53,986 nucleotides of DNA from contig JAJEAL010000034.1 in NCBI GenBank assembly GCA_022822785.1, positions 1-53,986 of the forward strand, written 5' to 3'. Below are positions 15,850-42,346 of this stretch, one piece after another. Each line of letters begins with the position of its first letter. Positions within the stretch are counted from its first letter, which is position 1. The stretch is from Candidatus Poribacteria bacterium (GTDB taxonomy: Bacteria > Poribacteria > WGA-4E > PCPOR2b). A program made the position numbers and the translations under genes. The notes under the pieces were generated by a model. It made no database searches. It was not told the DNA's origin and saw nothing but the letters and a program-made list of their open reading frames with translations.

Positions 15850-16152
15850 TCACCGAATCGGGTTGTGGACCGTAACAAGTTTTGTGCCATCGGGGAACGT
15901 GCCTTCGACCTGCACCTCATGCAGCATCTCCGGCACCCCTTCCATCACATCGTCACGGGTCAGCAGCGTTGTGCCGTACTGCATCAACTCCGCGACCGGT
16001 TTCCCATCACGGATGCCCTCTAAAATTTCAGCGGTGATAACGGCGACCGCTTCAGGATAGTTGAGCCTCAAGCCGCGCGCACGTCGATCTTTGGCAAGCT
16101 GTGCAGCCACATAAATCATCAGTTTCTCTTGCTCACGTGGTGTCAGGTTCAC
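15850..16152 (-). CDS. ureA: Urease subunit gamma
   Basis: A 100-residue subunit, the usual length, beginning [20 protein letters not shown]. It carries [37 protein letters not shown] and the C-terminal [15 protein letters not shown], all diagnostic of the gamma subunit. It lies 18 bp after ureD and just before ureB on the minus strand. The subunits are separate here, as in most bacteria, rather than fused as in plants or Helicobacter. Confidence 0.97.
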
Positions 16153-16170: not shown

Positions 16171-17019
16171 CTAATACTTTCGCAAATCAACCGCTTTGAG
16201 TCCGAAATGCTCTGTTTTGAGCCAACTCCAAATCGTTTGGAAGGCAGATTGAATCGCCCCCGCATTGTAAGCCAGCATCCGGATGACAACACCACCCTTC
16301 CCGAGTTGGGACAACCCCCCAATCGATTTTTGGGGTTGATTGAGGGACGATTCGGCAAACTCACAAAGCATCTCCCACCAAGACATCTCAAAATCACCAA
16401 TCAGATACCAACTTCCCCAACACGCATACCCTTCCAGCGCGCCGGGCCCAGTAAGGTAAGGGTGACACTTCGGTTGGAGATGGCAGGTATCATAAAGCAA
16501 CAACCCTTCTGAATTTGAGGCATCAATGCGACTTCGATAGTGCGTAAACGTCAACCTTTCGCCCCGCGCCAACCGCCCCGGCATGACAATTTCTTGGAAG
16601 GCAACCTTTGCCCCGTCCCCCAAAAAGAGGGAGATGTTTTGGCTAAAGTCTGCATCTCGAAACAGGATTGCCGAATCGGGTAGGTATTCAAAAATCGCAT
16701 CTTCCTCGACCCGAACTCGCATCGATTGTGTTGCGCCCTGGCGGGGCATAGCGTACACCTTTGTCGCCGCTTGCGTCGTCAGCACAGCGTGGGTGTTGGC
16801 AGCGAGTGTAACATCAATCTGGTAATTGTCACCCTGAACCACACCGCCCGTGGGACTCAGCAGGTAGACACAAGCGCAACCTGATTCGTCGTAACGCGGT
16901 TTCATCACCTGCAACGGAACCCGAAAGAAACTCTCCGTCAACACGGTCTGATCGTTCCGCTGTGCAAAAGTGAGTTTGAGTGCGCCGTGACGCCCAACAC
17001 TAGAGTCAATGCGTGACAT
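16171..17019 (-). CDS. ureD: Urease accessory protein UreD
   Basis: A 282-residue chaperone that binds apo-urease and, with UreF and UreG, directs carbamylation and nickel insertion. Family features are LKLTFAQRNDQTVLTESFF near the N-terminus, the LLSPTGGVVQGDNYQIDV strand and LTTQAATKVYAM. The ATG at 17019 begins one base after the urtE stop, so translation is tightly coupled to the urea transporter genes. This ties transport and hydrolysis into one transcript. No ureF or ureG is seen nearby, so they must lie elsewhere if the enzyme is active. Confidence 0.93.
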   Translation of the reverse strand: MSRIDSSVGRHGALKLTFAQRNDQTVLTESFFRVPLQVMKPRYDESGCACVYLLSPTGGVVQGDNYQIDVTLAANTHAVLTTQAATKVYAMPRQGATQSMRVRVEEDAIFEYLPDSAILFRDADFSQNISLFLGDGAKVAFQEIVMPGRLARGERLTFTHYRSRIDASNSEGLLLYDTCHLQPKCHPYLTGPGALEGYACWGSWYLIGDFEMSWWEMLCEFAESSLNQPQKSIGGLSQLGKGGVVIRMLAYNAGAIQSAFQTIWSWLKTEHFGLKAVDLRKY

Positions 17020-17020: not shown

Positions 17021-17716
17021 CTAAACGCTGAGATACTCCTGAATCATGTTTTCGTTGAGTGCGCCGGTCTCATCATGTGCAACAATCTCACCGCGGTTCA
17101 TAATGTAGAATTGCTGACAAAACTCTCGCACAAAATCGAGATACTGCTCGACGATGAGAATAGTTATCCGCCTGTTTTGGACTAACTGGCGCAGGACCGT
17201 CCCAATCTGTTGTATGATATTCGGTTGGATCCCCTCGGTCGGCTCGTCGAGAATCAGCACCTTCGGATCGGTAACAAGGGCACGGCCAATAGCAAGCTGC
17301 TGTTGTTGTCCACCGGAAAGATCGCCACCCATGCGACTCCCCATCTCCTCAAGAATCGGGAAGAGTTCATATATCTCGTCGGGGATTTGCGTCTGGTTGT
17401 CCGTCCGCGCCGAGAGACCAATCCTTAAATTCTCCTCAACAGTCAATCTCGGAAAGATCATCCGTCCTTGCGGTACATAAGCCAGTCCCGCGCGAATCCG
17501 ACGATGCGTTGCAGCACCCACGAGCTCCTGTCCCTCAATCTGAATCGAACCGGACGACGGCTTGAGTAGGCCGACAATATTATTCATCAGCGTCGTTTTG
17601 CCTACACCATTGCGCCCCATCATAGAGACAATCGTCTCAGCAGGGACGTGAATATTAATCCCGCGCAGTACTTGAACTTCTCCGTATGAAAATGAAAGAT
17701 TTGAAACTGTCAACAT
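17021..17716 (-). CDS. urtE: Urea ABC transporter ATPase UrtE
   Basis: A 231-residue ATPase of the branched-chain amino acid/urea (LivF-like) family. Walker A is GRNGVGKTTL, the signature is LSGGQQQQLAIGRAL, Walker B is VLILDEPTEGIQPN and the H-loop area reads ILIVEQYLDFV (Gln-Tyr where His is commonly found one residue on). EGIQPN, as opposed to EGLAP, is typical of UrtE. The ATG at 17716 starts MLTVSNLSFSYGEVQVLRGI. The reading frame extends 44 codons upstream but without family similarity. It pairs with UrtD on the cytoplasmic face of the UrtB/UrtC channel. Confidence 0.92.
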   Translation of the reverse strand: MLTVSNLSFSYGEVQVLRGINIHVPAETIVSMMGRNGVGKTTLMNNIVGLLKPSSGSIQIEGQELVGAATHRRIRAGLAYVPQGRMIFPRLTVEENLRIGLSARTDNQTQIPDEIYELFPILEEMGSRMGGDLSGGQQQQLAIGRALVTDPKVLILDEPTEGIQPNIIQQIGTVLRQLVQNRRITILIVEQYLDFVREFCQQFYIMNRGEIVAHDETGALNENMIQEYLSV

Positions 17717-17878
17717 AATATTAAAGAGAAAATAGGAGGCGGAGACGTCTAGACAATTCGTAAATTTCCGTAGCAGCTTCAACAGAATGTTGATACACAT
17801 CAAGCTGCCAATGATATTGGATTTTCTGAGCCACTCCGCTTCCCCCAACCCAGTTACTGTTTTCCGGTTTTCTCGGTC

Positions 17879-18697
17879 CTACCGTCCGAGGTACGCCTCA
17901 ATAACCTCCTCATTCTGCTGCACCTCGTGCATCATACCTTCCGCCATAATAATCCCTTCGTTTAACACAGTCACAAATGAACCAAGCTCACGTATAAAAT
18001 CCATATCGTGTTCGATAACGATAAGCGTATGCTCCTCCTTCAATTCGAGAAGGAGTTCAGCGGTCAACGCCGTTTCTGCGTCAGTTAAACCTGCGGCAGG
18101 CTCGTCGACAAGGAGCAGCTTGGGATCCGATAAGATGAGCGTACTGATCGCCAACCACTGGCGCTGCCCATGACTCAGGTATTTCGCTTCGCGGTGCAGC
18201 GCATCAACAAGCCCAACGCGCTCCAAAATCTCCAAGATTCGCTCACGCTGTGCCTTGGTTGTGCTGCCAAAAAGGTTTGACCAGAGGCGATAGTGACCGG
18301 GCAGGGAAAGTTCCATATTTTCGTAGGTAGTGAGACTATCAAAGACCGTCGGCGTTTGAAATTTTCTGCCAATGCCGTGCAACGCAACCTCTGCTTCCGT
18401 CCACTGCGTAATGTCGGCACCATCGAAAAAGACAGTTCCGGTGGTTGGTCGGGTCTTACCGCTCACAACATCGCAGAGCGTTGTTTTCCCAGCGCCGTTG
18501 GGGCCAATAATCACACGGAGTTCATTATGTTCAATCCCCAAAGCCTCTATATCTAACGCCTTGAAACCATCAAAGACAGCGGTAATATCCTCCAAAAAGA
18601 GTAGATACCGTTCCTCAGTAAACCGGCTATCTCGTGGGCTGTATTCCTTGTATTCCGCAACCCGATGGGCTGGATGCATATCTCCTCTTCTCTTCAT
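17879..18697 (-). CDS. urtD: Urea ABC transporter ATPase UrtD
   Basis: A 272-residue ATPase of the LivG-like type. Walker A is GPNGAGKTTLCDVVSGKT, the signature is YLSHGQRQWLAISTL and Walker B is LLLVDEPAAGLTDAET, followed by LIVIEHDMDFIREL. The LSHGQRQWL form of the signature is a hallmark of UrtD. The N-terminus has about 30 extra residues before FLEDITAVFDGFKAL. Either ATG 18697 or 18679 may be used; GAGGAG lies close to the second. It lies between urtC (24 bp) and urtE, with a 162-bp gap on the urtE side. Confidence 0.92.
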   Translation of the reverse strand: MKRRGDMHPAHRVAEYKEYSPRDSRFTEERYLLFLEDITAVFDGFKALDIEALGIEHNELRVIIGPNGAGKTTLCDVVSGKTRPTTGTVFFDGADITQWTEAEVALHGIGRKFQTPTVFDSLTTYENMELSLPGHYRLWSNLFGSTTKAQRERILEILERVGLVDALHREAKYLSHGQRQWLAISTLILSDPKLLLVDEPAAGLTDAETALTAELLLELKEEHTLIVIEHDMDFIRELGSFVTVLNEGIIMAEGMMHEVQQNEEVIEAYLGR

Positions 18698-18721: not shown

Positions 18722-19954
18722 CTATCTTGTTTTGCCTACCAAGCGATGCCATAAGTCAACCAAGCCGCCGGGGAAGAGCAGCACCACCCCAATAAACAGT
18801 CCACCCAAAATAAACTGCCAATACTCAGCCCTCCAAGTGAAGAGCAAAAGATTCTTTTCAGACGTAAAAAAATTATAGAGGAGATTAACCGCCAACGTTC
18901 CAAGAATCGCCCCGGACAGCGAACCACGTCCGCCAACCGCGACCCATACCACCACCAAGATAGACGCGCCCGCCTCCATATTCGTCGGTGTAAAAATGCC
19001 CATCTGTGGTGCGTAAAGCATCCCGCCGAGGCCAGCAATCATTCCGGCGAGGCTAAACGCGAAGAGTTTATAGATGTAAGGCTTATAACCCGAAAAACGC
19101 AAAGTGGATTCGTCATCTCGGATAGCAATCAAGATGCGTCCCAGACGCGATTTGACGACATGTTTGCACAATGCGTAGACACCGACCAACGCGAGAAGTG
19201 TAACGATATAAAGCCCGACTTTGACATGAGGGGTAGTTAGCTTGAACCCCGCTATCCGGTCAAACCGTGTCAACCCATTTGTACCACACAGCTTCATGTT
19301 GTTCATGCAAAACACCAACCAACCTGCGACGGTAATCGCCTGCGTCAAGATGGCAAAATATACTCCACGGACGCGACTCTTAAAACCGAAATACCCGATG
19401 GCCAGAGCGGCGATACTCGGAATCAGTAACCCTAAAATTACGGTGACCGGAAGCGTATAGAACGGCTTCCAGAACCATGGAACGAGGGCGTCTCCCGGCA
19501 CCTCGCCAACTTTATAAGGGTAAACCACATACAGGCAAGCGGGAATTTTCCAGTTGTTGGCATCTATAATCCCCTCCGGACCGCCGTGGTGTGCCAAGTA
19601 CATCCCCATAGCGTAGCCACCCAACGCAAAAAAGAAGGATTGGCATAGGCTCAAAATACCGGTGTAGCCCCAGATAAGGTCAAGCCCCACCGCAACAATC
19701 GCAAACGCCATGTACCGGCCGAGCATGTTCACCGTTCCGATAGACATCAGACCGATGTAATATAGCAGCGGTATGACAATTAAACCGATGAAAAACATCG
19801 CCCACGGGACATAGCGTTGGAGAAAGATTGACAGCTGGCCGTTGACTAGCCTTCTATCCTGCCACAGTTTCTGTTGAGTCGTTTTAATAGATTGGGGATT
19901 TGCCTCGATCGGGCTCTGATCTCCTGTTTGCATAATTGCAGCTTTTCTAAACAT
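18722..19954 (-). CDS. urtC: Urea ABC transporter permease UrtC
   Basis: A 410-residue inner-membrane permease of the LivM type with about ten membrane segments. Family patterns include LGRYMAFAIVAVGLDLIWGY, ILSLCQSFFFALGGYAMGMY and ILIAIRDDESTLRFSGY, the conserved cytoplasmic loop that contacts the ATPase. I chose the ATG at 19954 because it overlaps the urtB stop by eight bases, implying coupling. An ATG at 19933 is possible. The insert around residues 130-165 before the permease core is common in UrtC. It forms the channel with UrtB. Confidence 0.93.
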   Translation of the reverse strand: MFRKAAIMQTGDQSPIEANPQSIKTTQQKLWQDRRLVNGQLSIFLQRYVPWAMFFIGLIVIPLLYYIGLMSIGTVNMLGRYMAFAIVAVGLDLIWGYTGILSLCQSFFFALGGYAMGMYLAHHGGPEGIIDANNWKIPACLYVVYPYKVGEVPGDALVPWFWKPFYTLPVTVILGLLIPSIAALAIGYFGFKSRVRGVYFAILTQAITVAGWLVFCMNNMKLCGTNGLTRFDRIAGFKLTTPHVKVGLYIVTLLALVGVYALCKHVVKSRLGRILIAIRDDESTLRFSGYKPYIYKLFAFSLAGMIAGLGGMLYAPQMGIFTPTNMEAGASILVVVWVAVGGRGSLSGAILGTLAVNLLYNFFTSEKNLLLFTWRAEYWQFILGGLFIGVVLLFPGGLVDLWHRLVGKTR

Positions 19955-21719
19955 CGCTAAGCCTGCCTTTCGGTGCGAACAAGCCCGCCGGCTTAAACTG
20001 AATGAATCCCACAATAATTATCAGAAGTAAGATTTTTGCCCAAATTGCTCCGACCACTAGCGACCCAATCCCCAACGGTTCAATCATCTTCATCAGTACG
20101 CCAATCCCTAGCCCGGCACAGATAACGCCAATCAATTCACCCACGCCGCCGGTAACAACGACGAGAAACGAATCAATGATAAAATTGGTCTGTCCCATAT
20201 CAGGGGTGACACCGCCGATAAGCGTCCACGCGTAGCCTGCAACGCCAGCAATACCGGAACCGAAGGCAAAGGTATAGCGGTCAACGCGCTGTGTGTTCAC
20301 CCCCATGCTGTTCGCCATATTCCGGTTCTGCATGGTGGCTCGGACCCGCAACCCCAGCTTGGTGTAGTTCATCAGATAATAGATTAGCAACACACACAAG
20401 CCACACAGAAAGATAATAAAGCAGCGACTGTAAGGAACGATGAGATCTTGCAGAACCTCAAATCCACCACGTGCCCAAGTCGGGGCATTCACACCGATAT
20501 TGTCACCGTAACGAATCCGCACGAGCTGGATTAGGATAAGTCCGATTCCCCACGTTGCTAAGAGCGACTCCAATGGACGTCGGTATAAGTGACGAACGAC
20601 TAAAACCTCAATGACATAGCCAATAAGAGCCGCGGTTAAAAATGATACCGGCAGCGCGGCAACATAATACCAATCAGAAGGACTGTCCGGCGTATGACCA
20701 AATAGCCGCTGCATCTCAAAGGTTGCATACGCACCAATCATCATCAATTCACCATGTGCCATATTGATGACACCCATCAGACCGAACGTAATCGCAAGTC
20801 CTAGCGCCATGAGAATAAGCACGGATCCGAGTGAAAGCCCACGGAAAATATTGCCGATACCCTCTACGAAGCCTTGATAGCTGTTAATCTGATTAACCGC
20901 GTATTTATACGCAATACCGTACTTATAGATACCTAGAGACGCTACGTCGGCGGGATCAAGGTCCTCAATGTCAGTCCCTTCTTCAAAGTCCGGCAAGGCT
21001 TCAACCTCCACCATCAATTCATCAAACATTTCCTGCAGCCGGGGAAGTCCACGTAAGCTTTTCATCTTCCCTAATTCACGGACGATTTCAAGATGTGCCT
21101 GTGGGTCATGCTCCCGAGATGTCTGACTCAACCGAATTAGGAGCAGGCTCTCCTGGGCAACATATCGAATTTTCTTCACGGGGTCGTTTTGGGCTATCTC
21201 CTCAAGTTGGGAAACTGCCTCGATAATGCCCGGCGGATCGCCGCACTTTTTGACCCCAGATATCCGAACCTCAGGATCCGGCGATGACAACCTTACGAGA
21301 AATTTCGCGCTATGTGCTGTCCTCCGTTCTGCCCTCGATGGTGACAGCTCTTCTAACTCTTCGAGCGGGACTCCAGCCCGGTTCCCGGCTGCACCGAGAA
21401 TGAGTTCGTCAGTCAGCAAGTCGGACAGAATGTAGAATTCGTTGAAATCTTCATCCTCAACCATGTCTGTGCAGCGCACCACCTGCCCATTCCAGAGATA
21501 GAGTTCACCCAACCTATACGATTCAAGGAGCGCTTCCGCACGCAGATCACCGGACTGTGCTAGCGTCATAATAGCCGCTCTGCGGGTTGAGGCATCTTCG
21601 TCAGCAAGCTTGAGGGTTTCAGATCGGATGAATGTATCGTCTGCTTCGGCAAAGCAGAGATATACAACAGTAATCAGTTGTAAAAAGATGAGGGAGATGA
21701 TTCTGAAGATTCTTCGCAT
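19947..21719 (-). CDS. urtB: Urea ABC transporter permease UrtB
   Basis: A 590-residue protein with two parts. Residues 1-25 are a signal sequence (ISLIFLQLITVVYLCFAEA). Residues about 30-280 are a predicted periplasmic helical-repeat region with HEAT-like stretches (ASTRRAAIMTLAQSGDLRAE, DPEVRISGVKKCG). The C-terminal 300 residues are a LivH-type permease with ALGLAITFGLMGVINMAHGE and GVNTQRVDRYTFAFGSGIAG. The exported N-terminal extension is a normal feature of UrtB, though this one is on the long side. It overlaps urtC. A 238-bp gap containing hairpins separates it from urtA. Confidence 0.93.
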   Translation of the reverse strand: MRRIFRIISLIFLQLITVVYLCFAEADDTFIRSETLKLADEDASTRRAAIMTLAQSGDLRAEALLESYRLGELYLWNGQVVRCTDMVEDEDFNEFYILSDLLTDELILGAAGNRAGVPLEELEELSPSRAERRTAHSAKFLVRLSSPDPEVRISGVKKCGDPPGIIEAVSQLEEIAQNDPVKKIRYVAQESLLLIRLSQTSREHDPQAHLEIVRELGKMKSLRGLPRLQEMFDELMVEVEALPDFEEGTDIEDLDPADVASLGIYKYGIAYKYAVNQINSYQGFVEGIGNIFRGLSLGSVLILMALGLAITFGLMGVINMAHGELMMIGAYATFEMQRLFGHTPDSPSDWYYVAALPVSFLTAALIGYVIEVLVVRHLYRRPLESLLATWGIGLILIQLVRIRYGDNIGVNAPTWARGGFEVLQDLIVPYSRCFIIFLCGLCVLLIYYLMNYTKLGLRVRATMQNRNMANSMGVNTQRVDRYTFAFGSGIAGVAGYAWTLIGGVTPDMGQTNFIIDSFLVVVTGGVGELIGVICAGLGIGVLMKMIEPLGIGSLVVGAIWAKILLLIIIVGFIQFKPAGLFAPKGRLSDV

Positions 21720-21957: not shown

Positions 21958-23232
21958 CTACATCCCAATTTTTTCTTTTGGACCACCGGTCGGTGCCGGA
22001 TAGATGCCATCTGGGTGGAGATAGCTGCTGTACGAATCAGGCGATACCAGTCCGTCCGACTTATAGATAATCTTGAACTGACCGTTCTTCTTGATTTCGC
22101 CGATGTAAACCGGTTTAAGTGTATGCTGATTGCTTGCGTGCATCTGCTTCTTGCCACCGGGGGCGTCAAATTCCAATCCGTAGACCGCTTCTCGCACTTT
22201 GTCAACATCGAAGGATCCCGCCTCTTCAACGGCTGCTTTCCATACGTAAACACCGAAATATGCGGCTTCAATCGGATCGTCCGTAACACGTTTTGAACCG
22301 CCGGGCAGATTATTTCGCTCGCAGAACGCCTTGAAGTTCTTCACAAACTCCTTGTTTTCTGGTGTATTGATGCTCTGGAAATAGTTCCAAGCAGCCAGGT
22401 GCCCAACAAGGGGAGGGACATCCATCGCCCGTAATTCATCTTCCGCAACAGAGAAAGCCATAATCGGACAGTCATCAGAAGTCAAGCCTTGGTTGGCGAA
22501 CTCCTTGTAAAAAGGCACGTTACTGTCGCCGTTAATCGTGGAAAGCACACAAGCATCACCACCGGCGGCAAATTTCTTTATCTTCCCAACGATGGTCTGA
22601 TAATCCTGATGGTGGAACTGCGTGTACTCTTCGACGATATTCCCATCGGGAACCCCCTTCGTCTTCAGATAAGCCTTCAGTACCTTGTTCGCTGTGCGAG
22701 GAAACACATAGTCGGTTCCCAACAGATAGAACTTCTTGGCTCCGACCTCTTCCATCATATATTCAGCTGCCGGAATCAACTGTTGGTTCGGGGTCGCGGC
22801 GGTGTAGAAGACGTTCAGGGACTGCTCCTCACCTTCGTACTGAACCGGGTAGAAAAGCAGCGAGTTATGTTCCTCAAAAACAGGGAGAACAGATTTCCGA
22901 CTCACAGAGGTCCAACACCCAAAGACCACAGCAACCTCTTCCTTAGTGATTAAATCCTTCGCTTTTTCAGCAAAAAGGTCCCAGTCACTGGCGGGATCAA
23001 CGACAACCGGTTCAATCTGTTTGCCCATGACCCCGCCCGCGGTGTTGATCTCTTCAACCGCCATCAGCACAACGTCCTTGAGAGACGTTTCAGAAATTGC
23101 CATCGTTCCGCTCAAAGAGTGTAGCACACCAATCTTTACTTTATTAGCCTCAGCGTTTACCTCTTCAACGCCGAGGAATCCAACAGCCAAAAGTAGCAAA
23201 CCTATCGCAACAATACTGTACAACCGAAACAT
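21958..23232 (-). CDS. urtA: Urea ABC transporter substrate-binding protein UrtA
   Basis: A 424-residue periplasmic binding protein. The signal peptide runs to about residue 28 (IVAIGLLLLAVGFLGVEEV) without a lipobox Cys. The mature part has the UrtA pattern KIGVLHSLSGTMAISETSL, VVFGCWTSVSRKSVLPVFEE, LFYPVQYEGEEQSLNVFYT and FYLLGTDYVFPRTANKVL. These match urea- and short-chain-amide-binding family members rather than general leucine binders. It lies 40 bp after the porin gene and before urtB, so it is the first transporter gene of the operon. Confidence 0.95.
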   Translation of the reverse strand: MFRLYSIVAIGLLLLAVGFLGVEEVNAEANKVKIGVLHSLSGTMAISETSLKDVVLMAVEEINTAGGVMGKQIEPVVVDPASDWDLFAEKAKDLITKEEVAVVFGCWTSVSRKSVLPVFEEHNSLLFYPVQYEGEEQSLNVFYTAATPNQQLIPAAEYMMEEVGAKKFYLLGTDYVFPRTANKVLKAYLKTKGVPDGNIVEEYTQFHHQDYQTIVGKIKKFAAGGDACVLSTINGDSNVPFYKEFANQGLTSDDCPIMAFSVAEDELRAMDVPPLVGHLAAWNYFQSINTPENKEFVKNFKAFCERNNLPGGSKRVTDDPIEAAYFGVYVWKAAVEEAGSFDVDKVREAVYGLEFDAPGGKKQMHASNQHTLKPVYIGEIKKNGQFKIIYKSDGLVSPDSYSSYLHPDGIYPAPTGGPKEKIGM

Positions 23233-23272: not shown

Positions 23273-24226
23273 TTAGAATGTAAAAAGGGATTCAACTGCA
23301 ATAATTGTCTCTTCTACATCAAGTCGCTGTTTGAATTCGGCCAGAAGTAACCAGTTATCTGTCGCTGAATAGGAGGGGCTAAAGGTGAACTCCGTGGAGG
23401 TGGCTGAATTATCTAGACTGATACCACTGAAGCGGACGGTTACACCAACCGGCGCGGAAATGATATCCGCCAACGAAACATTCGCCATTCCCAAAAAGTG
23501 CATACCGTTATTCCCATCAGCACCCCAGTTTCCCAGCAGATCGATTTCGCCCGCGAGGGTCAACGGTCCCTGTGCAAATGACACCCACGCGTTGAGTTCG
23601 CTCTGTGTATAATCCTCCATCGCGTCAAATGCATAGCCAACCTTCGCAGTAATCTGTTCGATTGGAGTCAGCGACAGCTGAGCTTCAACGCCAGGGGTCG
23701 TGGCATCTGTTTCGTTCACATCCCAGACGCTCGACAGAAACGCGACGTAAAGTCCCGCTTCCTTAATGGGACTCACATTAAGCGCAACACCGTTCTGATA
23801 CCCAGGATACGGGATGCCCTCAGAAAAAGAGTATTGATACAGCCCTGTCGGCTCTGCCGCTTCAAAACCGAACGAACTCAAAAAACGACCTGCAGTAATG
23901 CTCACACCGGGCAGCGTATCTTTAGAGAACATGTAGGTTGCAAACCCCTGCTCCAGTTTGATCCCCTGATCGGCGTCTGTACTATCGATATCAACCCGTC
24001 CAATAACCGAACCGTAATTCAGATGAAAGTCCATCTCGAACTGATCGAAAGACAGACCGACTTCGGTCTCATCACCCACAGTTGTAACACTTGACATATC
24101 CAGAAAACCTGAAACTGACAGGTTATCGTTCAGTTTAATCTCCGCGGAAGCGGAACTGAACGCGAAAACCAGCGCCAACATAGCGAAAACAGAAAGCGAC
24201 TGGATACCTCCATTTGATAAAATCAT
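23273..24226 (-). CDS. Outer-membrane beta-barrel porin, first gene of the urea operon
   Basis: A 317-residue protein with a signal peptide (MILSNGGIQSLSVFAMLALV, cleaved near SSASA-E). Many alternating hydrophobic strands ending in aromatic residues follow, and the last residues are EETIIAVESLFTF, a C-terminal Phe as required for BAM-mediated barrel insertion. LYQYSFSEGIPYPGYQNGVA is a family-like loop of putative porins. GGAGG lies seven bases before ATG 24226. It sits 40 bp upstream of urtA on the same strand, so it probably lets urea cross the outer membrane; that role is inferred from position. A sigma-54-type promoter lies about 250 bp upstream. Confidence 0.82.
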   Translation of the reverse strand: MILSNGGIQSLSVFAMLALVFAFSSASAEIKLNDNLSVSGFLDMSSVTTVGDETEVGLSFDQFEMDFHLNYGSVIGRVDIDSTDADQGIKLEQGFATYMFSKDTLPGVSITAGRFLSSFGFEAAEPTGLYQYSFSEGIPYPGYQNGVALNVSPIKEAGLYVAFLSSVWDVNETDATTPGVEAQLSLTPIEQITAKVGYAFDAMEDYTQSELNAWVSFAQGPLTLAGEIDLLGNWGADGNNGMHFLGMANVSLADIISAPVGVTVRFSGISLDNSATSTEFTFSPSYSATDNWLLLAEFKQRLDVEETIIAVESLFTF

Positions 24227-24477: not shown

Positions 24478-24491
24478 GCAAGAACGGTGCC
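24478..24491 (-). promoter_or_regulatory. Sigma-54 (RpoN) -24/-12 promoter of the urea operon
   Basis: On the minus strand the sequence reads TTTGGCACCGTTCTTGCC. It matches the TGGCAC-N5-TTGC consensus with GG and GC exactly ten bases apart (GG at 24490-24491, GC at 24478-24479). It lies about 250 bases upstream of the porin start. The palindrome at 24625-24643 is about 134 bases further upstream, a typical distance for an activator of sigma-54 RNA polymerase. Confidence 0.7.
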
Positions 24492-24527
24492 AAAGATTGA
24501 ATAATCGTTTTTTTTATTTAGAAGAAA

Positions 24528-24660
24528 TGTGTGGAAGGTAGGTAGAAACGGAAGGCAGACTTAATCTTTAAGATAATTATTCGGTCAGGATTATCGCTGG
24601 GCAGTTGACACGGCTCTCACCAATCTGCTGAAAATTCAAGCAGCGCATTGCCTAAATTTT
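24528..24660 (-). repeat. Upstream regulatory block, copy A
   Basis: This block aligns along its length with 25704-25833, which lies ahead of the TorF-like gene. Shared stretches include GAAACGG, TTAAT, AATTATTCG and ATTCAAGCAGC. The two copies stand in the same position and orientation relative to the two sigma-54-type promoters. Confidence 0.6.
24625..24643. promoter_or_regulatory. Enhancer-like palindrome CTGCT-N9-AGCAG, copy A
   Basis: The plus strand reads CTGCTGAAAATTCAAGCAG. The CTGCT/AGCAG half-sites are kept in copy B (25798-25816) with the same N9 spacing. The distance to the -24 element is also nearly the same (about 134 versus 132 bases). It is probably the binding site of a sigma-54 activator. 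Confidence 0.6.
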
Positions 24661-24674
24661 CACTCAAGATGCTA

Positions 24675-24766
24675 GTTGACAAAAAAAATCGTAGAGACGC
24701 ACGAAGCGCGCTCTACGATTCGGTATGTGTCCGGGAATGCCGGACACGCCTCACATAAATGTCAAC
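24675..24766. repeat. Cloverleaf-like inverted-repeat element
   Basis: Outer arms GTTGACA (24675-24681) and TGTCAAC (24760-24766) enclose two perfect hairpins. One is AATCGTAGAG/CTCTACGATT (24687-24696, 24711-24720, with inner CGC/GCG pairs). The other is GTGTCCGG/CCGGACAC around GAATG (24727-24747). It could be a small non-autonomous element or a structured RNA near the end of the TorF-like transcript. Confidence 0.5.
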
Positions 24767-24796
24767 ATGCCCTAGTATTTCCGAGGTTTGACATGC

Positions 24797-24818
24797 TCCC
24801 AATGTTGAAACATTGGGA
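24797..24818 (-). terminator. Hairpin after the TorF-like gene
   Basis: TCCCAATGTT and AACATTGGGA form a perfect 10-bp palindrome around GA, 15 bases after the stop of the gene ending at 24833. No T-run follows on the minus strand, so an intrinsic terminator is only possible. Confidence 0.35.
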
Positions 24819-24832
24819 TTGCAAAAGGGCTT

Positions 24833-25579
24833 TCAATCAATACTGAATGAGGTGCCAATGGTGATATATGACATCTTGAGGTCGGTATTAGGATTATAGC
24901 CAATGTTGAAGCTAACAGAGGTCTCTGCATCACCGGGAATAGAATACGAAATGCTTGGCGTGATGTCCACCAACGCAGCCCCCTCAGTCCCATAAAGCGC
25001 ACTTTCGCCAAGCGCAAGGCCAGCTGTCAATCCAATTCCCAAGTTCTTATAGGTTGTTCCGAGACTGGGAGCAAGATACATCGAACTATCATCGTCGCCG
25101 GCAAGATTCATATAAAAGGCGATAGCGTTATCAAACGGCAGCGCACTGATGCCGATACTTGCGTTTGCTTCAAGCACATGGCCATCTGCAAACGGAAAAC
25201 TGTTTGGAATCACGTAGTCAATAACACCCGCACTGATATCAACTACTCCAAGGCTAGCACCAAGGGATACGGTGTAATCGATCTCGCTGTTGTCCGCATC
25301 ACCCCCTTCAATACCCTGCGAATACCAGACATTGGCACCAACGGTGACAGGGCCAGCGGCGTAAGAGACATCAGCAGAGGGTTGCATAAAACTCGTTCCA
25401 GCACCCGCACTAGCACCTCGCCAATAATACGCGCTTGCATAGGTGGCGTCAATTACGATGTCAACGGGCAATGATGAGCTCTCCTCTTCTGCTGCTACTG
25501 TCACGGTTCCTGCAACAGAGACTAATACGCAAACGGCTACAACACACCAATACCGTGCGATGGGCATCTTACATGTCAT
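24833..25579 (-). CDS. TorF-like (Gcw_chp) putative outer-membrane porin
   Basis: A 248-residue predicted outer-membrane barrel. The signal peptide spans about residues 8-30 (WCVVAVCVLVSVAGTVTVAA, cleaved before EEESS). The mature protein opens with DATYASAYYWRGASAGAG, the tell-tale first strand of the Gcw_chp/TorF family, and continues in short amphipathic strands to ITIGTSFSID. It does not end in Phe, which is unusual for a barrel. AGGAG lies before ATG 25579. It has its own sigma-54-type promoter sharing an upstream block with the urea operon, so it is probably co-regulated. The solute is unknown; urea or amide entry is inferred only from context. Confidence 0.75.
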   Translation of the reverse strand: MTCKMPIARYWCVVAVCVLVSVAGTVTVAAEEESSSLPVDIVIDATYASAYYWRGASAGAGTSFMQPSADVSYAAGPVTVGANVWYSQGIEGGDADNSEIDYTVSLGASLGVVDISAGVIDYVIPNSFPFADGHVLEANASIGISALPFDNAIAFYMNLAGDDDSSMYLAPSLGTTYKNLGIGLTAGLALGESALYGTEGAALVDITPSISYSIPGDAETSVSFNIGYNPNTDLKMSYITIGTSFSID

Positions 25580-25652
25580 TTGTAATCTCCTTTACAATGC
25601 TTGTTTTTCAATCAAGTGAATGGCATATCCTGCCAAGTTCAACAATAAACCA

Positions 25653-25666
25653 GCAAAAAAGATACC
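25653..25666 (-). promoter_or_regulatory. Sigma-54 (RpoN) -24/-12 promoter of the TorF-like gene
   Basis: On the minus strand the sequence reads TTTGGTATCTTTTTTGCTGG, with GG (25665-25666) and GC (25653-25654) ten bases apart, as sigma-54 promoters require. The -12 half TTTTTTGCTG is a close fit to TTGCT. It lies about 75 bases before the ATG at 25579, giving a short leader. Confidence 0.68.
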
Positions 25667-25703
25667 AAAGGTTATATCAAAAGCGTTTTGTACCATGAAA
25701 ACC

Positions 25704-25833
25704 TGTGTAGGACGAGAAGAAACGGCAAGCGGTTTAATTTTTTGAAATTATTCGTTCGGCACACTATCGACGAAGAGGCTATACAATTTTCATCAGACTG
25801 CTAACAATTCAAGCAGCACATCACGTAGATTTT
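25704..25833 (-). repeat. Upstream regulatory block, copy B
   Basis: This is the counterpart of 24528-24660. It contains the same run of conserved pieces in the same order, ending in the CTGCT-N9-AGCAG palindrome and a TAGATTTT tail matching TAAATTTT. Similarity fades on both sides apart from the -24/-12 promoter. Confidence 0.6.
25798..25816. promoter_or_regulatory. Enhancer-like palindrome CTGCT-N9-AGCAG, copy B
   Basis: The plus strand reads CTGCTAACAATTCAAGCAG. It shares both half-sites and the right-hand ATTCAAGCAG with copy A, at about 132 bases upstream of the -24 element. Confidence 0.6.
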
Positions 25834-26108
25834 AAGCAGATTATCGCTTCGACGAACCACGTTAGCGCTGGAGGTGTGAGATTGAACCGGGAACCGTGAA
25901 ACCCAACACCTCCAGCACCCGCCCCTTCGCTTCAGGGAAACATAATGTATAGGGCACATTAGTGCAATGAACCAATAGATTTATGACCACCTGCACATCG
26001 CGTTTCAATTTCAACTTGACAAAGCATCTTCACTTTGCTAGATTAGAACCAGAACACCATCAAGAGAATGAGATACGCACTACATTCATACGGAATCAGG
26101 AGGGTATC

Positions 26109-29352: not shown

Positions 29353-30786
29353 ATGCCGGCAAAAGAATTAACCTTAGAACAGCGTGAGGCTTTACGCCGA
29401 ATCCCTTCCATTGAACAGCTGCTCACTCATGAACTGTTCCTCAGTATGGAAGAGCACTATTCGCGAGATCTCATAGCGGAAACACTACGGGCTGTAACTG
29501 CGAACGTTCGCAAGCAAATCCTTGACGGACCGGAGACCGTGGAAATTCTTGATGAATCGACCTATGCAGCGTTTGTTCATGCGGAACTAGAATCCTTAAC
29601 AACCTCCGCACTCCGTCCAATTGTCAACGCCACCGGCACAATTACCCATACCAATCTCGGTAGATCGGTGCTCAGCGCTGCCGCGTCTGAAAGCCTTGCC
29701 CACGCTGCTGCAAACTACGTGAATCTGGAATATGACCTCGCTACCGGGGCACGTGGGCACCGAGATCGAATCACTGAGCCGTTGCTACAGCGGTTGACCG
29801 GATGTGAAGCGTCAACAATAGTCAATAATAACGCAGCGGCCGTGCTACTCGCGCTAAACACGCTAGCACAAGGCAAAGAGGTGATTGTCTCCCGCGGGGA
29901 ACTCATCGAGATCGGTGGAACGTTCCGCATCCCTGATATGATGCAAGCGAGCGGTGCTATCTTACACGAGGTTGGGACGACGAACCGAACGCATCTTCGG
30001 GACTACCAGCACGCAATTAACGAGAAGACAGCACTCCTCCTCAAGGTGCATCCGAGCAATTACCAAGTCGTCGGATTCGCCTCAACCCCTGAGATGGAGG
30101 AACTCACCGAACTCGGGCGCCAGCACGGTATCACAACGATGGAAGATCTGGGGAGCGGCTCCCTGATTGATCTGACCCGTTACGATTTGCCTTATGAACC
30201 GGTGGTTAGTGAACGGATAAGGGCCGGTGTTGATGTCGTGACTTTCAGTGGGGATAAACTGCTTGGGGGATCGCAGGCGGGAATCATTGTGGGGCGGCAG
30301 GACATCATCGAGAAAATTCGCACAAATCCATTGATGCGGACGTTGCGTGTGGGGAAACTCACTATCGCTGCGATCGAAGCGACCTTGCGGCTCTACCTCA
30401 ACGAAAAGGGGTTGGACACCAAGCTGCCGATGCTTCAGCGTTATACCCGGTCAGGTGCCGAACTCCGTGAGGTCGCCGAAAAGCTTGCCAATCGCCTGCA
30501 GCACATTTTCAGCGATTCCATCCAAGTAACGGTTGAAATGAGCGCTGCACAGATTGGCAGCGGTTCACTGCCCGTTGATACCTTGCCAAGCGTTGTTGTT
30601 AGTCTACACGCATCGCAGTTTTCCGCCGAGCTGCTTGCGGCACATTTTCGAGCGCAGCCGACACCTGTGATTGGACGTATGCAAGGTCAGCAGCTCCAGC
30701 TCGATATGCGGACGGTGTTTGAGAGGGAGTTGTTATGGATTATCGAAGCAGCGAAGCGGGTGATGGAAGAACTTCAGACAGAATAG
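29353..30786 (+). CDS. selA: L-seryl-tRNA(Sec) selenium transferase
   Basis: SelA converts seryl-tRNA(Sec) to selenocysteinyl-tRNA(Sec) with selenophosphate and pyridoxal phosphate. The 477-residue length is typical. The PLP lysine is K302 in TFSGDKLLGGSQAGIIVG. Other signatures are PIVNATGTITHTNLGRSVLS, NLEYDLATGARGHRD and TIVNNNAAAVLLALNTLA. It is followed 30 bp later by selB and then the tRNA-Sec gene. Together these give the insertion machinery except for the selenophosphate synthetase SelD, which is not in the window. Confidence 0.97.
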   Translation: MPAKELTLEQREALRRIPSIEQLLTHELFLSMEEHYSRDLIAETLRAVTANVRKQILDGPETVEILDESTYAAFVHAELESLTTSALRPIVNATGTITHTNLGRSVLSAAASESLAHAAANYVNLEYDLATGARGHRDRITEPLLQRLTGCEASTIVNNNAAAVLLALNTLAQGKEVIVSRGELIEIGGTFRIPDMMQASGAILHEVGTTNRTHLRDYQHAINEKTALLLKVHPSNYQVVGFASTPEMEELTELGRQHGITTMEDLGSGSLIDLTRYDLPYEPVVSERIRAGVDVVTFSGDKLLGGSQAGIIVGRQDIIEKIRTNPLMRTLRVGKLTIAAIEATLRLYLNEKGLDTKLPMLQRYTRSGAELREVAEKLANRLQHIFSDSIQVTVEMSAAQIGSGSLPVDTLPSVVVSLHASQFSAELLAAHFRAQPTPVIGRMQGQQLQLDMRTVFERELLWIIEAAKRVMEELQTE

Positions 30787-30816
30787 CGCCATTCACTCTA
30801 GACAGGACAGGATAAT

Positions 30817-32739
30817 ATGCGACATGTCATCATCGGCACGGCTGGACACGTTGATCACGGAAAATCGACACTGATACACGCCCTGACCGGCATCGAAACC
30901 GATCGACTCAAAGAGGAGAAAGAGCGTGGACTGTCAATCGAACTAGGGTTCGCCTATTTTGATTTACCGGATGGGGCACGGGCTGGCATCGTCGATGTTC
31001 CCGGACATGAACGGTTTATCCGAAATATGCTCTCAGGCGCGTACGGGATGGATATGGTGATGCTCGTCGTTGATGCAAAGGAGGGAGTGCAGGAACAGAC
31101 GCTAGAACACGTGGAGATTCTCGACCTGCTCAACATTCCGACCGGCATCCTTGTTATGACTAAAGTAGATCTGGTAACGCCGAATCAATTGGTGGAATCC
31201 GCCGACATGTCTCAAGAGATGCTGGTTGGCACAACCCTCGAAGGCTCACCCACCGTCCATGTCTCCGCAATGACCGGTGAAGGTTTAGACGAACTTAAGC
31301 GCACAATTGTGGCGTGCGTCAACGCTGAAGCAGAAACAGACCGGTATAACGGCATCCCCCGCCTATATGTAGATCGGGTTTTCTCGATGACAGGGTTTGG
31401 CGCGGTGGTAACAGGGACCCTAATGGGGGGCGCAATTCACCGCGAACAACGACTCGTGATGCTACCACAAGGGCACGAAGTGCGGGTACGCGGCGTCCAA
31501 GTTCACAATGAACAGGCACAAAGTGCACAATCAGGACAACGAACAGCGTTAAACTTATCAGGCATCACCACAGCCCAGATCGAACGTGGGAATGTGGTCT
31601 GTCCAAGCGGGTTTTCAGCGGTCACAGACAATATCGACGTATCGCTCGACCTCCTGTCGTCTTTCCCACGAATGCTTGAACACTGGACACGCCTGCGATT
31701 CTATCTCGGGACCAGCGAGACCTTTTGCCGAGCAATCTTACTCATGGAAGAAGGAGTTCTGCCGGGCGACTCGACACAGCTCCAGCTGCGCCTTGAGAAA
31801 CCGATTTTGACCTTCAGAGGCGATCGGTTTATCGTGCGAGATTTCTCCGCTCAACATACAGTCGGCGGCGGACGAGTGGTGAACCCATTCGCTCCGCGTC
31901 ATAGGCGATTCACAGAAGAAACGCTAGAAACTCTAACGATGTGGGAAGATGCGGAGGATACGGACGTTGTAAAATTAGTATTGGCACAAAACCGCGACCT
32001 CTGTGTCCCCGAAGAATTTCTCCGCTACTACCTCCCTTACGCCGATGCGGACTTTAGAGCCTTCTTAAAAGATCTTGAGAACCGCCAAGAGATTGTGCGC
32101 TGGGACGGAAGTACCGCCCTCATTTCTGCGATAGATCGAGCGGAACAGGCACAAACCGATTTAACCTATGCCTTGGCGAGCTTCCATGAGGAACAACCGC
32201 TTGCCCCCGGTCAGAACGCCTCGCAACTCCGACGTCAACTTGGACTGGACGAAATCGGTTTTGAAAAGGTTACGGATCAGCTCATCCGTGAAAAACAGAT
32301 AGTCACCGATGGAAATTTACTGCGGCTCTCAGCGCATCAAATTCAGTTTTCAGCGGAGGAAGAAGATATCAAGGAAGAGGTCGAAAAGATATTCCTTGAT
32401 GCCGGCATAAACAGTCCATCTATGGCTGAGTTGACCACACAGCTATCAGCGTACCCGCCACAATCGGTTCAGCAGACCTTTTATGCGCTGATGAACCTGG
32501 GACGATTTATTAGAATCGGGGACGACCTCTTTATCCATACCGAGATGTTTGAACGAATTGTGAGTTCGCTTACCGATTACCTTAAAAAAAATGATATAAT
32601 AACTGTAGCTGAATTTCGAGAACTCGCACAAACCAGTAGGAAATACGCTGTACCATTTCTCGAATACTGCGACGGCAAAGGACTCACGATCCGCGAGGGG
32701 AACCATCGACGACTGCGGATATTGCAACACAAAACGTAA
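30817..32739 (+). CDS. selB: Selenocysteine-specific elongation factor SelB
   Basis: A 640-residue GTPase that delivers Sec-tRNA to UGA codons marked by a SECIS hairpin. The N-terminal EF-Tu-like G domain has GTAGHVDHGKSTLIHAL, IVDVPGHERFI and VMTKVDLV. Beta-barrel domains II-III follow (RLYVDRVFSMTGFGAVVTGT). The C-terminal third is the winged-helix array that binds the mRNA SECIS. The full length argues for a working factor. It lies between selA and tRNA-Sec. Confidence 0.97.
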   Translation: MRHVIIGTAGHVDHGKSTLIHALTGIETDRLKEEKERGLSIELGFAYFDLPDGARAGIVDVPGHERFIRNMLSGAYGMDMVMLVVDAKEGVQEQTLEHVEILDLLNIPTGILVMTKVDLVTPNQLVESADMSQEMLVGTTLEGSPTVHVSAMTGEGLDELKRTIVACVNAEAETDRYNGIPRLYVDRVFSMTGFGAVVTGTLMGGAIHREQRLVMLPQGHEVRVRGVQVHNEQAQSAQSGQRTALNLSGITTAQIERGNVVCPSGFSAVTDNIDVSLDLLSSFPRMLEHWTRLRFYLGTSETFCRAILLMEEGVLPGDSTQLQLRLEKPILTFRGDRFIVRDFSAQHTVGGGRVVNPFAPRHRRFTEETLETLTMWEDAEDTDVVKLVLAQNRDLCVPEEFLRYYLPYADADFRAFLKDLENRQEIVRWDGSTALISAIDRAEQAQTDLTYALASFHEEQPLAPGQNASQLRRQLGLDEIGFEKVTDQLIREKQIVTDGNLLRLSAHQIQFSAEEEDIKEEVEKIFLDAGINSPSMAELTTQLSAYPPQSVQQTFYALMNLGRFIRIGDDLFIHTEMFERIVSSLTDYLKKNDIITVAEFRELAQTSRKYAVPFLEYCDGKGLTIREGNHRRLRILQHKT

Positions 32740-39149: not shown

Positions 39150-41714
39150 ATGGCTGAAAAGTTTTTGTACGAAACAATACTAGAGGAATTTGGACGCCGA
39201 ACTATCCAAGATACCGAGATTCCCAATTATCTCAAAGACAATCTGAATCCCAAGTTTGACCTCCGCCCCTATCAGGAAGAAGCTTTCGCCCGTTTCTTCC
39301 TCTGTTTTGAAGAAGATTTCGATGGTAAGGAAAAACCTCTGCACCTTCTGTTCAATATGGCGACCGGCAGCGGCAAAACGCTCATCATGGCTGGCTTGAT
39401 TCTCTACCTCTACGAAAAAGGCTATCGAAACTTTCTCTTCTTTGTCAACTCCACCAATATCATCGAAAAGACAAAGGACAATTTCCTCAATCCGCTGTCG
39501 TCCAAATACCTCTTCAATGAAAACATCCACTTCAGATCGATTCGCGTCCCCGTGACGCCTGTTCCCAATTTTGAAGGCGTCAACGAAAACGATATCAATA
39601 TCTGTTTCACCACCATCCAACAGCTACATATCGATCTAAATACACAAAAAGAGAACGGCTTAACATACGAGGATTTCAAAGACAAAAAGATCGTGCTCTT
39701 AGCCGATGAAGCACATCATATCAATACCAGTACGAAAACCGGACGGGAATTGTTGGAAAGTTGGGAAAATACGGTGGAGCGTATCTTTAATCAGAACAGA
39801 GACAATCTGCTGCTTGAGTTTACCGCCACCCTCGATTATACCCACAGCAGCCTTGTCGATAAATACCGGAACAGAGTATTGTATAGGTATGATCTGCGAC
39901 AGTTCCGCAATGACGGCTATTCCAAAGATGTCTTTATTGTTCGGGCGGATTTTGAGGAAAAAGATCGCATCGTACAGGCACTTGTTCTCAACCAGTATAA
40001 ACAGGAGGTAGCCGCAAAACATCAGATTAATCTCAAGCCGGTGATCCTATTCAAGACACAGCGCACCATTGAACAGTCAAAAAAGAACAAAGCGGACTTT
40101 CACAAACTCATTGATAGCCTCACGGCAGCGGACATCGCTAACATCCGTCGATCGGATATCCCGTTGGTGCGACGGGCATTTCAATTTTTTGACGATAATG
40201 ACATCAGCGACGAGCGGTTAGTCGGACGCCTAAAACAGGAATTTCAGGAGGACTACTGCCTCTCGGTCAACGATGAACGAGAGAAAGAAAATCATCAGAT
40301 TCTGGTCAACACCCTTGAGGACAGCGACAACCGTATCCGCGCTATCTTTGCCGTGCAGAAACTCAACGAAGGGTGGGATGTCCTGAATCTATTCGATATT
40401 GTCCGATGCTACACGACCCGTGACGCAAAAGCAGGGAAACCGGGCAAAACGACAATTGCAGAGGCGCAGTTAATCGGACGCGGTGCGCGGTATTTCCCCT
40501 TTGCTACCGACGATAATCCTGATCAATACCAACGGAAATTCGATAAAAATCTGACAGCGGAACTACGGGTGTTGGAGGAGCTGCACTATCACAGTGTCAA
40601 CGATTCCCGCTATATCTCTGAGATCCGCACTGCCCTGATTGATGAAGGGATGCTGGACGATGGGACGGTAGAAAAACCGCTTAAACTGAAAAGTGAGTTT
40701 AAGGAAACCGATTTTTACAAGCGTGGGATCATCTACATCAATGAACGGGTTAAGAACGGGAATGAATCTGTCCGCTCATTCGCCGATATGGGTGTGTCGT
40801 CAAAGAATTACCACCATTCACTCGCCACCGGCAGAGGTGTTGTTGAAGCGGCTCTGGATGACAACGCTGATGTTCAACAGATTATAGAGGCAGGTCAGAA
40901 AAATATTCCGGTGAGAGATATACCGTTCCATATCGTTAGGGCTGCAGTTACTCGAAATCCCCTTTTTGCTTTCAAATCTTTGAAAACCTATTTCCCTCAC
41001 ATTAAATCTATCCGTGAGTTCATTGAAGCGGATGAGTATCTCGGTGGACTTTCAATCACCCTTCAGGGCGATGAAAGATACCTTTTGTCTAATGAAACCT
41101 ACCTTGCTGCGGTGACGGGGCTTCTTGACCGTGTTGCATCTGAACTGCGTCAAAATATAACCGAATACAAAGGCACAGAATCTTTCAAACCAAGCAATAT
41201 CAAGTCAATTTTCACCGACAAAACCCTCAAATTGGTTGAAGGCAGCGAAAGGGCGGACGGCGACGAGGGGTTGGTCTCCGATAGGGAGTGGTATGTATTC
41301 AATGCCAACTACGGCACCGATGAGGAAAAAGCATTTGTCCGAACCCTTGACAGCCAGATAGACAAGCTGAAAGAAAAGTACGACGGGATATATCTTGTCC
41401 GTAACGAAAGACATTTCAAAATTTACAACTTCGACGACGGACAGGCGTTTGAGCCCGATTTTGTGCTGTTTCTGCGTGAGAAAAACGGAAACACCCTCAT
41501 CCGTCAGATATTTATTGAACCCAAGGGAAAGCATCTGCAAAAACACGAAAAATGGAAAGAGAATTTCCTAAAACAGATTAAAGAAAAATTCGCAGGGGAA
41601 GTGCTGGTGCTTAAGACCCAAAGCGGAACGCAGAAGCACAGGCCAATTGGCGTGCCGTTCTATGACTATCAAGATGAAAGTCGGTTCTTGGAAAGCCTTG
41701 AATCTGTGTTATAA
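39150..41714 (+). CDS. Type III restriction enzyme, Res subunit
   Basis: An 854-residue SF2 helicase-nuclease. Motif I is MATGSGKTLIM (about residues 70-80), motif II is ADEAHHIN with the DEAH Asp at 186, and motif III is EFTATLDY. A later helicase motif is RAIFAVQKLNEGWDVLN, then AQLIGRGARYFPF. The C-terminal PD-(D/E)xK nuclease is visible as FEPDFVLFL (Asp770) and IEPKGKHL (Glu790, Lys792). It translocates and cuts DNA only with Mod bound to unmethylated sites. Mod lies 630 bp downstream, separated by repeats and a HicB-like gene, rather than directly adjacent as is usual. Confidence 0.92.
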   Translation: MAEKFLYETILEEFGRRTIQDTEIPNYLKDNLNPKFDLRPYQEEAFARFFLCFEEDFDGKEKPLHLLFNMATGSGKTLIMAGLILYLYEKGYRNFLFFVNSTNIIEKTKDNFLNPLSSKYLFNENIHFRSIRVPVTPVPNFEGVNENDINICFTTIQQLHIDLNTQKENGLTYEDFKDKKIVLLADEAHHINTSTKTGRELLESWENTVERIFNQNRDNLLLEFTATLDYTHSSLVDKYRNRVLYRYDLRQFRNDGYSKDVFIVRADFEEKDRIVQALVLNQYKQEVAAKHQINLKPVILFKTQRTIEQSKKNKADFHKLIDSLTAADIANIRRSDIPLVRRAFQFFDDNDISDERLVGRLKQEFQEDYCLSVNDEREKENHQILVNTLEDSDNRIRAIFAVQKLNEGWDVLNLFDIVRCYTTRDAKAGKPGKTTIAEAQLIGRGARYFPFATDDNPDQYQRKFDKNLTAELRVLEELHYHSVNDSRYISEIRTALIDEGMLDDGTVEKPLKLKSEFKETDFYKRGIIYINERVKNGNESVRSFADMGVSSKNYHHSLATGRGVVEAALDDNADVQQIIEAGQKNIPVRDIPFHIVRAAVTRNPLFAFKSLKTYFPHIKSIREFIEADEYLGGLSITLQGDERYLLSNETYLAAVTGLLDRVASELRQNITEYKGTESFKPSNIKSIFTDKTLKLVEGSERADGDEGLVSDREWYVFNANYGTDEEKAFVRTLDSQIDKLKEKYDGIYLVRNERHFKIYNFDDGQAFEPDFVLFLREKNGNTLIRQIFIEPKGKHLQKHEKWKENFLKQIKEKFAGEVLVLKTQSGTQKHRPIGVPFYDYQDESRFLESLESVL

Positions 41715-41760
41715 TCCAAGTTATTTGGCACTGAAAATCCATCGGTTTCCTGTTAAAGTT

Positions 41761-41915
41761 GAGGTACTCTATCTTTTGCTCCAGAGGAGCAACATGTCTA
41801 TAGAAAGACGAGACATCCAAAAACCACGCTCCAGCGGAGCGCAATGTGTGTAGCCTTAGATGTCGAGTGTGAAAACTCGACCTACGGACTACTAGCAGCT
41901 TGCGTTATTATAAAA
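41761..41915. repeat. 155-bp tandem repeat, copy 1
   Basis: It starts GAGGTACTCT and ends TTATTATAAAA. It contains the palindromes GCTCCAGAGGAGC and GCTCCAGCGGAGC, then a TCGAGTGTGAAAACTCGA hairpin. It differs from copy 2 at only about eight positions. Confidence 0.85.
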
Positions 41916-42070
41916 GAGGTGCTCTGTCTTTTGCTCCAGAGGAGCAACATGTCTATAGAAAGACGAGACATCCAAAAACCGCGCTCCAGCGGAGCGCAAT
42001 GTGTGTAGTCTTAGATGTCGAGTATGGAAACTCGACCTACGGGCTACTAGCAGCTTACGTTATTATAAAA
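41916..42070. repeat. 155-bp tandem repeat, copy 2
   Basis: It abuts copy 1 directly, with the same length and order of elements, and ends right before the ATG of the HicB-like gene at 42072. Its hairpin reads TCGAGTATGGAAACTCGA. Confidence 0.85.
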
Positions 42071-42071
42071 A

Positions 42072-42320
42072 ATGAAGAAAATGAACACAAGCAACCGTTA
42101 TGTCAAGATTGTCGAATGGTCTGATGAAGACCAATACTATGTTGGTAGTTGTCCGGGGCTCCTTTATGGTGGCTGCCACGGGGATAATGAACAAGAGGTA
42201 TTCTCAGAGTTGTGCCGCATCGTTGAAGAGACCATTGAACTATATCAGCGAGACGGCAGACCACTGCCTTCAGCGACAGCCGGAAAAGACTATGCTAACA
42301 AGATGTTGAAGATTGCCTAA
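42072..42320 (+). CDS. HicB-like antitoxin, orphan
   Basis: An 82-residue protein with a partial HicB fold: VKIVEWSDEDQYYVGSCPGL followed by GGCHGDNEQEVFSELCRIVE and an LYQRDGRPLP tail. This is the HicB RNase H-like strand-strand-helix signature. HicB proteins normally pair with the small RNA-targeting toxin HicA, but no HicA frame is seen on either side. The ATG begins two bases after repeat copy 2 and has no clear ribosome site; an ATG at 42081 is an alternative. Mod follows 26 bp later. Confidence 0.68.
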   Translation: MKKMNTSNRYVKIVEWSDEDQYYVGSCPGLLYGGCHGDNEQEVFSELCRIVEETIELYQRDGRPLPSATAGKDYANKMLKIA

Positions 42321-42346
42321 CAAACGGATACCCCAAGGACCGTACA

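Follow-up and report, generated by a model that had tools for sequence, protein, structure and literature searches.

Which switch governs a gene cluster that leads from an outer-membrane porin through urea import to urease, and does the gene for a second putative barrel beside it answer to the same switch? The window, the whole stretch of 53,986 nucleotides that was analysed, is contig C141 of a Candidatus Poribacteria genome (G000; 5.6 Mb in 147 contigs), and its UrtA is 93-94% identical to other Candidatus Poribacteria UrtA. An earlier note on this DNA had proposed that one activator of sigma-54 promoters serves outer-membrane entry, ABC uptake and urease together.

The porin-urea cluster and its control region

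On the minus strand the genes follow one another in the order torF-like, porin, urtABCDE, ureD and urease gamma, beta and alpha.

24833..25579, minus strand: torF-like (Gcw_chp-like) gene for a secreted putative barrel; PF09694 22.4 bits, below the cut-off of 24
23273..24226, minus strand: outer-membrane porin gene; likely ATG start 24226, longest open reading frame from 24283
21958..23232, minus strand: urtA, urea ABC transporter binding protein; TIGR03407 574.9 bits, cut-off 492.75
19947..21719, minus strand: urtB, permease with an N-terminal extension matching HEAT repeats (HEAT_2); TIGR03409 368.9 bits, cut-off 250.3
18722..20014, minus strand: urtC, permease; TIGR03408 343.3 bits, cut-off 296.2
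17879..18697, minus strand: urtD, ATPase; TIGR03411 323.2 bits, cut-off 304.1
17021..17848, minus strand: urtE, ATPase; TIGR03410 325.8 bits, cut-off 285.8
16171..17019, minus strand: ureD, urease accessory protein; PF01774 173.7 bits
15850..16152, minus strand: ureA, urease gamma; PF00547
15506..15853, minus strand: ureB, urease beta; PF00699
13755..15473, minus strand: ureC, urease alpha; TIGR01792 983 bits, cut-off 680

All five UrtABCDE subunits exceed their NCBIfam cut-offs, and the gamma, beta and alpha subunits of urease are all found by Pfam/TIGRFAM matches. The gene order suggests a single transcript from the porin gene to ureC; a candidate sigma-54 promoter of the urease genes themselves at 15874-15889 (TGGCACAAAACTTGTT) was rejected, its -12 element lacking the GC. 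A urease cluster of Poribacteria was already known from a single-cell genome, as cited in a passage of PMC3669342. The HEAT-repeat-like extension of UrtB (window 19947-21719) spans about 290 residues ahead of the permease domain. Elsewhere the window contains a type III restriction-modification pair (ResIII helicase-nuclease and N6_N4_Mtase, 39150-44272) and, at 29353-32739, selA adjoining selB; because these two genes are adjacent, the organism probably makes selenoproteins.

The start of the porin agrees with its relatives, which have an ATG after the same AATGGAGG. The model of the protein (289 residues, pLDDT 86.6) is a 16-strand beta-barrel whose fold resembles that of general porins, OmpU and OmpF among them (TM about 0.75, identity 11-14%), and its BBP2 score of 25.8 bits lies below the cut-off of 26.2. 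Gene order and the shared switch suggest that urea enters through this porin, and the prediction is thus one of a dedicated outer-membrane porin for urea uptake.

The elements ahead of the porin and torF genes are as follows.

24478..24491, minus strand: sigma-54 -24/-12 element (GG-N10-GC) of the porin-urt-ure cluster, TTTGGCACCGTTCTTGCC; GG...GC = 24491..24478
24626..24642, minus strand: promoter-proximal enhancer dyad of the porin (TGC-N11-GCA), TGCTTGAATTTTCAGCA; starts 151 bp from the GG, model match E 2.4e-10
24649..24665, minus strand: distal enhancer dyad of the porin, degenerate, GAGTGAAAATTTAGGCA; 23 bp from the proximal dyad
24681..24721, minus strand: intrinsic terminator-like hairpin with T8, between torF and the porin control region; -23.4 kcal/mol, z = -5.9
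25653..25666, minus strand: sigma-54 -24/-12 element of torF, TTTGGTATCTTTTTTGCT; GG...GC = 25666..25653
25799..25815, minus strand: proximal enhancer dyad of torF, TGCTTGAATTGTTAGCA; starts 149 bp from the GG, tandem model match E 1.1e-8
25822..25838, minus strand: distal enhancer dyad of torF, TGCTTAAAATCTACGTG; 23 bp beyond the proximal dyad

Both GG-N10-GC elements were read directly in the sequence where the earlier note had placed them. The CTGCT-N9-AGCAG palindromes that it had reported at matched spacing are also present (24625-24643 and 25798-25816), and the window has no other exact match; the 17-bp proximal dyads within these palindromes lie 134 bp (porin) and 132 bp (torF) from the -24 GG. 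As a description of the enhancer unit, however, the palindrome was only partly right. The enhancer is a tandem of 17-bp TGC-N11-GCA dyads, two at each locus with a spacing of exactly 23 bp, and each palindrome covers the one nearer to the promoter; the second dyad (24649-24665, 25822-25838) had been missed, and the conserved core is TGC-N11-GCA, not CTGCT-N9-AGCAG.

The single motifs are of little use when taken alone. In the window CTGCT-N9-AGCAG with at most one mismatch occurs 3 times against 1.06 expected, and TGGCAC-N5-TTGCW with at most two mismatches is at chance level (30 found, 26.6 expected). Over the genome the bare palindrome was rejected as a motif (12 occurrences against 7 in the control), and only its two window copies also match the combined promoter pattern. 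Because single motifs stand at chance frequency, the weight of the argument rests on their combination and on conservation.

At the porin this conservation is firm, and the sigma-54 promoter and enhancer that the earlier note had asked to see in relatives are indeed kept. The -24/-12 bases TTGGCA...TTGC are invariant in 10 of 10 aligned poribacterial porin loci, and the tandem dyads, 23 bp apart, are kept at the readable porin loci of families f1 and f2; the distal dyad, degenerate in the window, is intact in relatives such as G019 (TACTTAAAATTTAGGCA). The start of the proximal dyad lies 147-151 bp from the GG in genus g1 and family f2, and 161-192 bp in other genera of f1. Two more distant genomes (family f7) have the porin and lack a convincing dyad. 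Helical phasing between enhancer and promoter was considered and dropped: the porin distances of 147-151, 161, 182 and 192 bp fit whole turns, and those of glnA (153-200 bp) are out of phase. The porin of G022 keeps enhancer and promoter in a genome without urt, and this combination offers a natural test of a porin role beyond urea. At that locus (G022 C1:53000-64000, L330) a UrtA search came back empty, and beyond the porin the sequence leads directly to genes that are found below 11 kb in the window.

The same enhancer before ammonium genes

A loose dyad search located a further tandem copy on contig C104 upstream of amt1-amt2, 149 bp from a sigma-54 promoter (TGGCATCTTTTTTGCC). A 44-column model was built from porin, torF and amt sequences, with no glnA sequence, and applied to 85 Poribacteria genomes. 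Its outstanding matches in the own genome are limited to porin, torF and amt; in genus g1 they are at porin and amt. In family f4 the best new matches precede genes for glutamine synthetase, and each of these matches is followed by a sigma-54 promoter. When glnA loci with a sigma-54 promoter were inspected directly, 32 of 37 had all 12 core bases of TGC-N11-GCA-N6-TGC-N11-GCA and 36 of 37 matched at least 11, with none of 200 shuffles reaching the score at each; the glnA, amt and porin loci come from related genomes, so that such counts are not independent. The own glnA, with the P-II gene directly downstream, has the tandem enhancer at 195 bp from its sigma-54 promoter, and at the glnA of G016 a clear tandem site is absent. 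The bases between the core positions vary among genes and families, and the geometry is constant.

A scan for sigma-54 hexamers together with TGC-N11-GCA, independent of the model, led to the same loci. It gave 6 matches in the own genome against 0 in the control, which puts the pairing at a fixed distance far above chance. Four of the six matches lie at nitrogen loci, namely glnA, amt1-amt2, porin-urtABCDE-ureDABC and torF. Each of the six genus members has matches of the combined pattern at glnA, amt and porin, and the six genomes pooled yield 35 matches against 5 in the reversed control. All examined matches at non-nitrogen loci were set aside as lying within or overlapping coding sequence.

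At amt loci outside the genus (L290 in G030, L296 in G027, L295 in G016) a variant pair with the proximal site TGATGAAAATTTCAGCA or TGATGAAATTTTCAGCA stands before a sigma-54 promoter and may represent this enhancer in a drifting form. Beyond the phylum, a Pirellulales locus (L070, JAKVCB010000049.1) has, upstream of urtA, the tandem TGTGCGCTTGTTCGGCA / TGCACGCTTTGTGCGCA, 23 bp apart and 104 bp ahead of a sigma-54 promoter, and the 23-bp spacing may therefore reach beyond Poribacteria; as a motif before urtA in other phyla it was discarded, this one locus being near chance level. Good sigma-54 promoter matches 100-350 bp before urtA occur at many loci of Planctomycetes and Verrucomicrobia (e.g. 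L048, L051, L055, L060, L071, L072, L077, L082), which suggests that sigma-54 control of urea uptake would be widespread in these groups.

The torF copy, the activator and rival readings

The control regions of torF and porin align end to end. The block of about 130 bases seen at both loci in the earlier note reflects homology, the spacer reaching z = 6.7 against shuffles with 79 of 132 positions identical; this spacer homology is confined to torF and porin, the amt and glnA spacers being without it. The simplest history is that the torF control region is probably a diverged copy of that of the porin, copied when torF came in. Because the strong terminator-like hairpin stands between them, the two promoters probably serve separate transcripts. 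The torF gene itself offers few clues: the protein has no NCBIfam match at 1e-5, its structure model is uninformative (pLDDT 43) and no relatives were found in viral contigs. Conservation, expected in the earlier note for both loci, holds only in part at torF. The gene occurs in 4 of 6 genus members and is not beside the porin in G019 and G022; its -24/-12 element is kept in G018 and G021, and that of G020 carries one extra T; the dyads are intact only in the genome of the window, G018 having degenerate ones and G020 and G021 none. The torF half of the regulon claim is weaker than the porin half because conservation across the genus is poor for both the gene and its palindrome.

RpoN, whose presence the earlier note had named as a check, is encoded in the genome with AID, CBD and DBD domains, in its normal setting next to lptB-like and hpf-like genes. 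A second, more divergent RpoN-like match lies at G000:C21:37214-37609 (L002, L154; Sigma54_DBD 95 bits, in a 472-aa open frame). Matches to bacterial enhancer-binding proteins (bEBPs) number more than 20. Among six whose C-termini were tested, the response regulators at C33:121470-122921 and C88:90402-91871 fit the end of the ntrC model best (36 bits against 15-21). Both have NtrC-type HTH DNA-binding domains, and ntrC is the model that fits them best, both for the whole protein and, in comparison with other bEBP models, for the HTH; both stay below the ntrC equivalog cut-off (478 and 495 bits against 558.6). A choice between them by phyletic pattern failed, both being nearly universal in families f1-f4, and neither locus has a tandem site of at least 24/34 or a combined promoter match that would point to autoregulation. 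NtrB carries a PAS domain. The kinase beside the C33 regulator scores 139 bits against 240 for NR(II) and has a GAF domain and membrane segments, with no PAS.

Hence both window sites are very probably enhancers of a nitrogen-limitation regulon under an NtrC-type response regulator and RpoN. The regulator would bind as dimers to the two tandem 17-bp dyads (TGC-N11-GCA, 23 bp apart), oligomerise there, loop the spacer of about 130-180 bp and make RpoN-RNA polymerase form the open complex at the -24/-12 promoter. Since the same enhancer-promoter stands before glnA, amt1-amt2, porin-urtABCDE-ureDABC and torF, nitrogen limitation would raise the assimilation and uptake of ammonium together with the entry, import and hydrolysis of urea. 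Regulator binding, looping, induction by nitrogen starvation and the identity of the activator are what we infer; the genes for uptake and splitting of urea probably turn on with those for ammonium uptake and glutamine synthesis when nitrogen is short. The shared enhancer and its conservation are best accommodated by a single activator of outer-membrane entry, ABC uptake and urease, as first proposed.

Other readings were weighed against this one. That a common GG-N10-GC and a short palindrome were paired by chance is suggested by each motif alone being near chance frequency, and is refuted, with practically no probability left, by the conservation at the porin, the recurrence before amt and glnA, the recovery of glnA by a model that had not seen it and the zero control matches in the own genome. 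An activator specific for urea or amides, binding the palindromes and controlling only porin-urt-ure and torF, would explain why each window site has the other as its nearest match and why their inner bases are unlike the NtrC box; it is largely refuted and highly improbable, since the same tandem enhancer also precedes amt and glnA, both in this genome and in others that lack urt. The likeness of the control regions could also stem from recent duplication only, with the torF palindrome a fading relic without function. The spacer homology confined to torF and porin, the absence of torF in G019 and G022 and the loss of the palindrome in G020 and G021 speak for this, against which both dyads and the 149-bp spacing are intact in the genome of the window and the -24/-12 element persists in G018 and G021. 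Such a relic appears rather doubtful, and the argument is limited to torF, the porin site being firmly conserved.

There is, finally, the matter of which family the activator belongs to. A bEBP unrelated to NtrC might have taken over nitrogen control in Poribacteria, with the membrane GAF kinase next to the C33 regulator, for example, as its driver. Both candidates falling under the equivalog cut-off, the GAF and membrane segments in place of PAS and the inner difference of the site are in keeping with such a takeover; yet ntrC is the best model for both candidates, full length and HTH alike, and the dyads have the geometry of the NtrC box, so the takeover is unlikely. Because the site has this geometry and the same enhancer precedes glnA and amt, the activator is probably, in function, a nitrogen regulator of NtrC type with a diverged half-site; the system works like NtrC control, of which it is a candidate member. 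The suggestion in the earlier note of a different activator, made since the site is unlike TGCAC-N5-GGTGCA, is thus borne out for the inner bases and not for the geometry or the company of glnA and amt. An extended version, held tentatively and with less than even confidence, would combine a shifted DNA specificity (TGC-YTA, not TGC-ACC), a membrane GAF kinase as sensor instead of NtrB and a copyable enhancer module, duplicated with torF and kept on the porin of G022 without urea genes.

Comparison with known systems

In the literature library that was searched, one paper mentions both Poribacteria and sigma-54, and its title and abstract point to a subject other than their regulation. The urease of the phylum was proposed to meet nitrogen needs, in a passage of PMC3669342 that does not describe its regulation. 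Sigma-54 promoters were predicted at alpha- and betaproteobacterial urease genes in a cross-phylum survey (PMC12316311), whose main text is without Poribacteria and whose relevant passages give no activator site. The present analysis, from sequence alone, offers a concrete and testable nitrogen regulon for an uncultured sponge-associated phylum.

The closest known system is the glnA enhancer of E. coli, where NtrC (NR-I) and sigma-54 act. The two share a sigma-54 promoter, upstream tandem 17-bp TGC-N11-GCA dyads at looping distance and targets that include glnA and ammonium transport (PMC8743547; PMC7408454). The E. coli NtrC box is TGCACCAnnnTGGTGCA (PMC8743547); the poribacterial sites do not match it in full and keep the outer TGC/GCA, A7 and mostly T11. 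Proximal sites have Y instead of A at position 4, mostly T or C at position 5 and A or G at position 6, with a consensus of about TGC-Y-T/C-A-A-W-W-W-T-T-N-A-GCA, so that the inner half-site is YTA where that of E. coli is ACC. The distal glnA sites of genus g11 (TGCGCAAAAAACGTGCA) are closer to the NtrC box. The poribacterial enhancer may thus be a natural case of an NtrC-type site in which the geometry was kept and the base preference drifted. It also differs in its layout, the E. coli glnA sites lying about 90 and about 140 bp upstream of the start and the poribacterial dyads 147-200 bp from the promoter at an invariant spacing of 23 bp, and no NtrB-like kinase adjoins the candidate regulators. 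Moreover, unlike the NtrC regulon of E. coli, that of Poribacteria would take in the urea genes and a porin, and the use of urea would be tied to the switch of glutamine synthetase and ammonium uptake.
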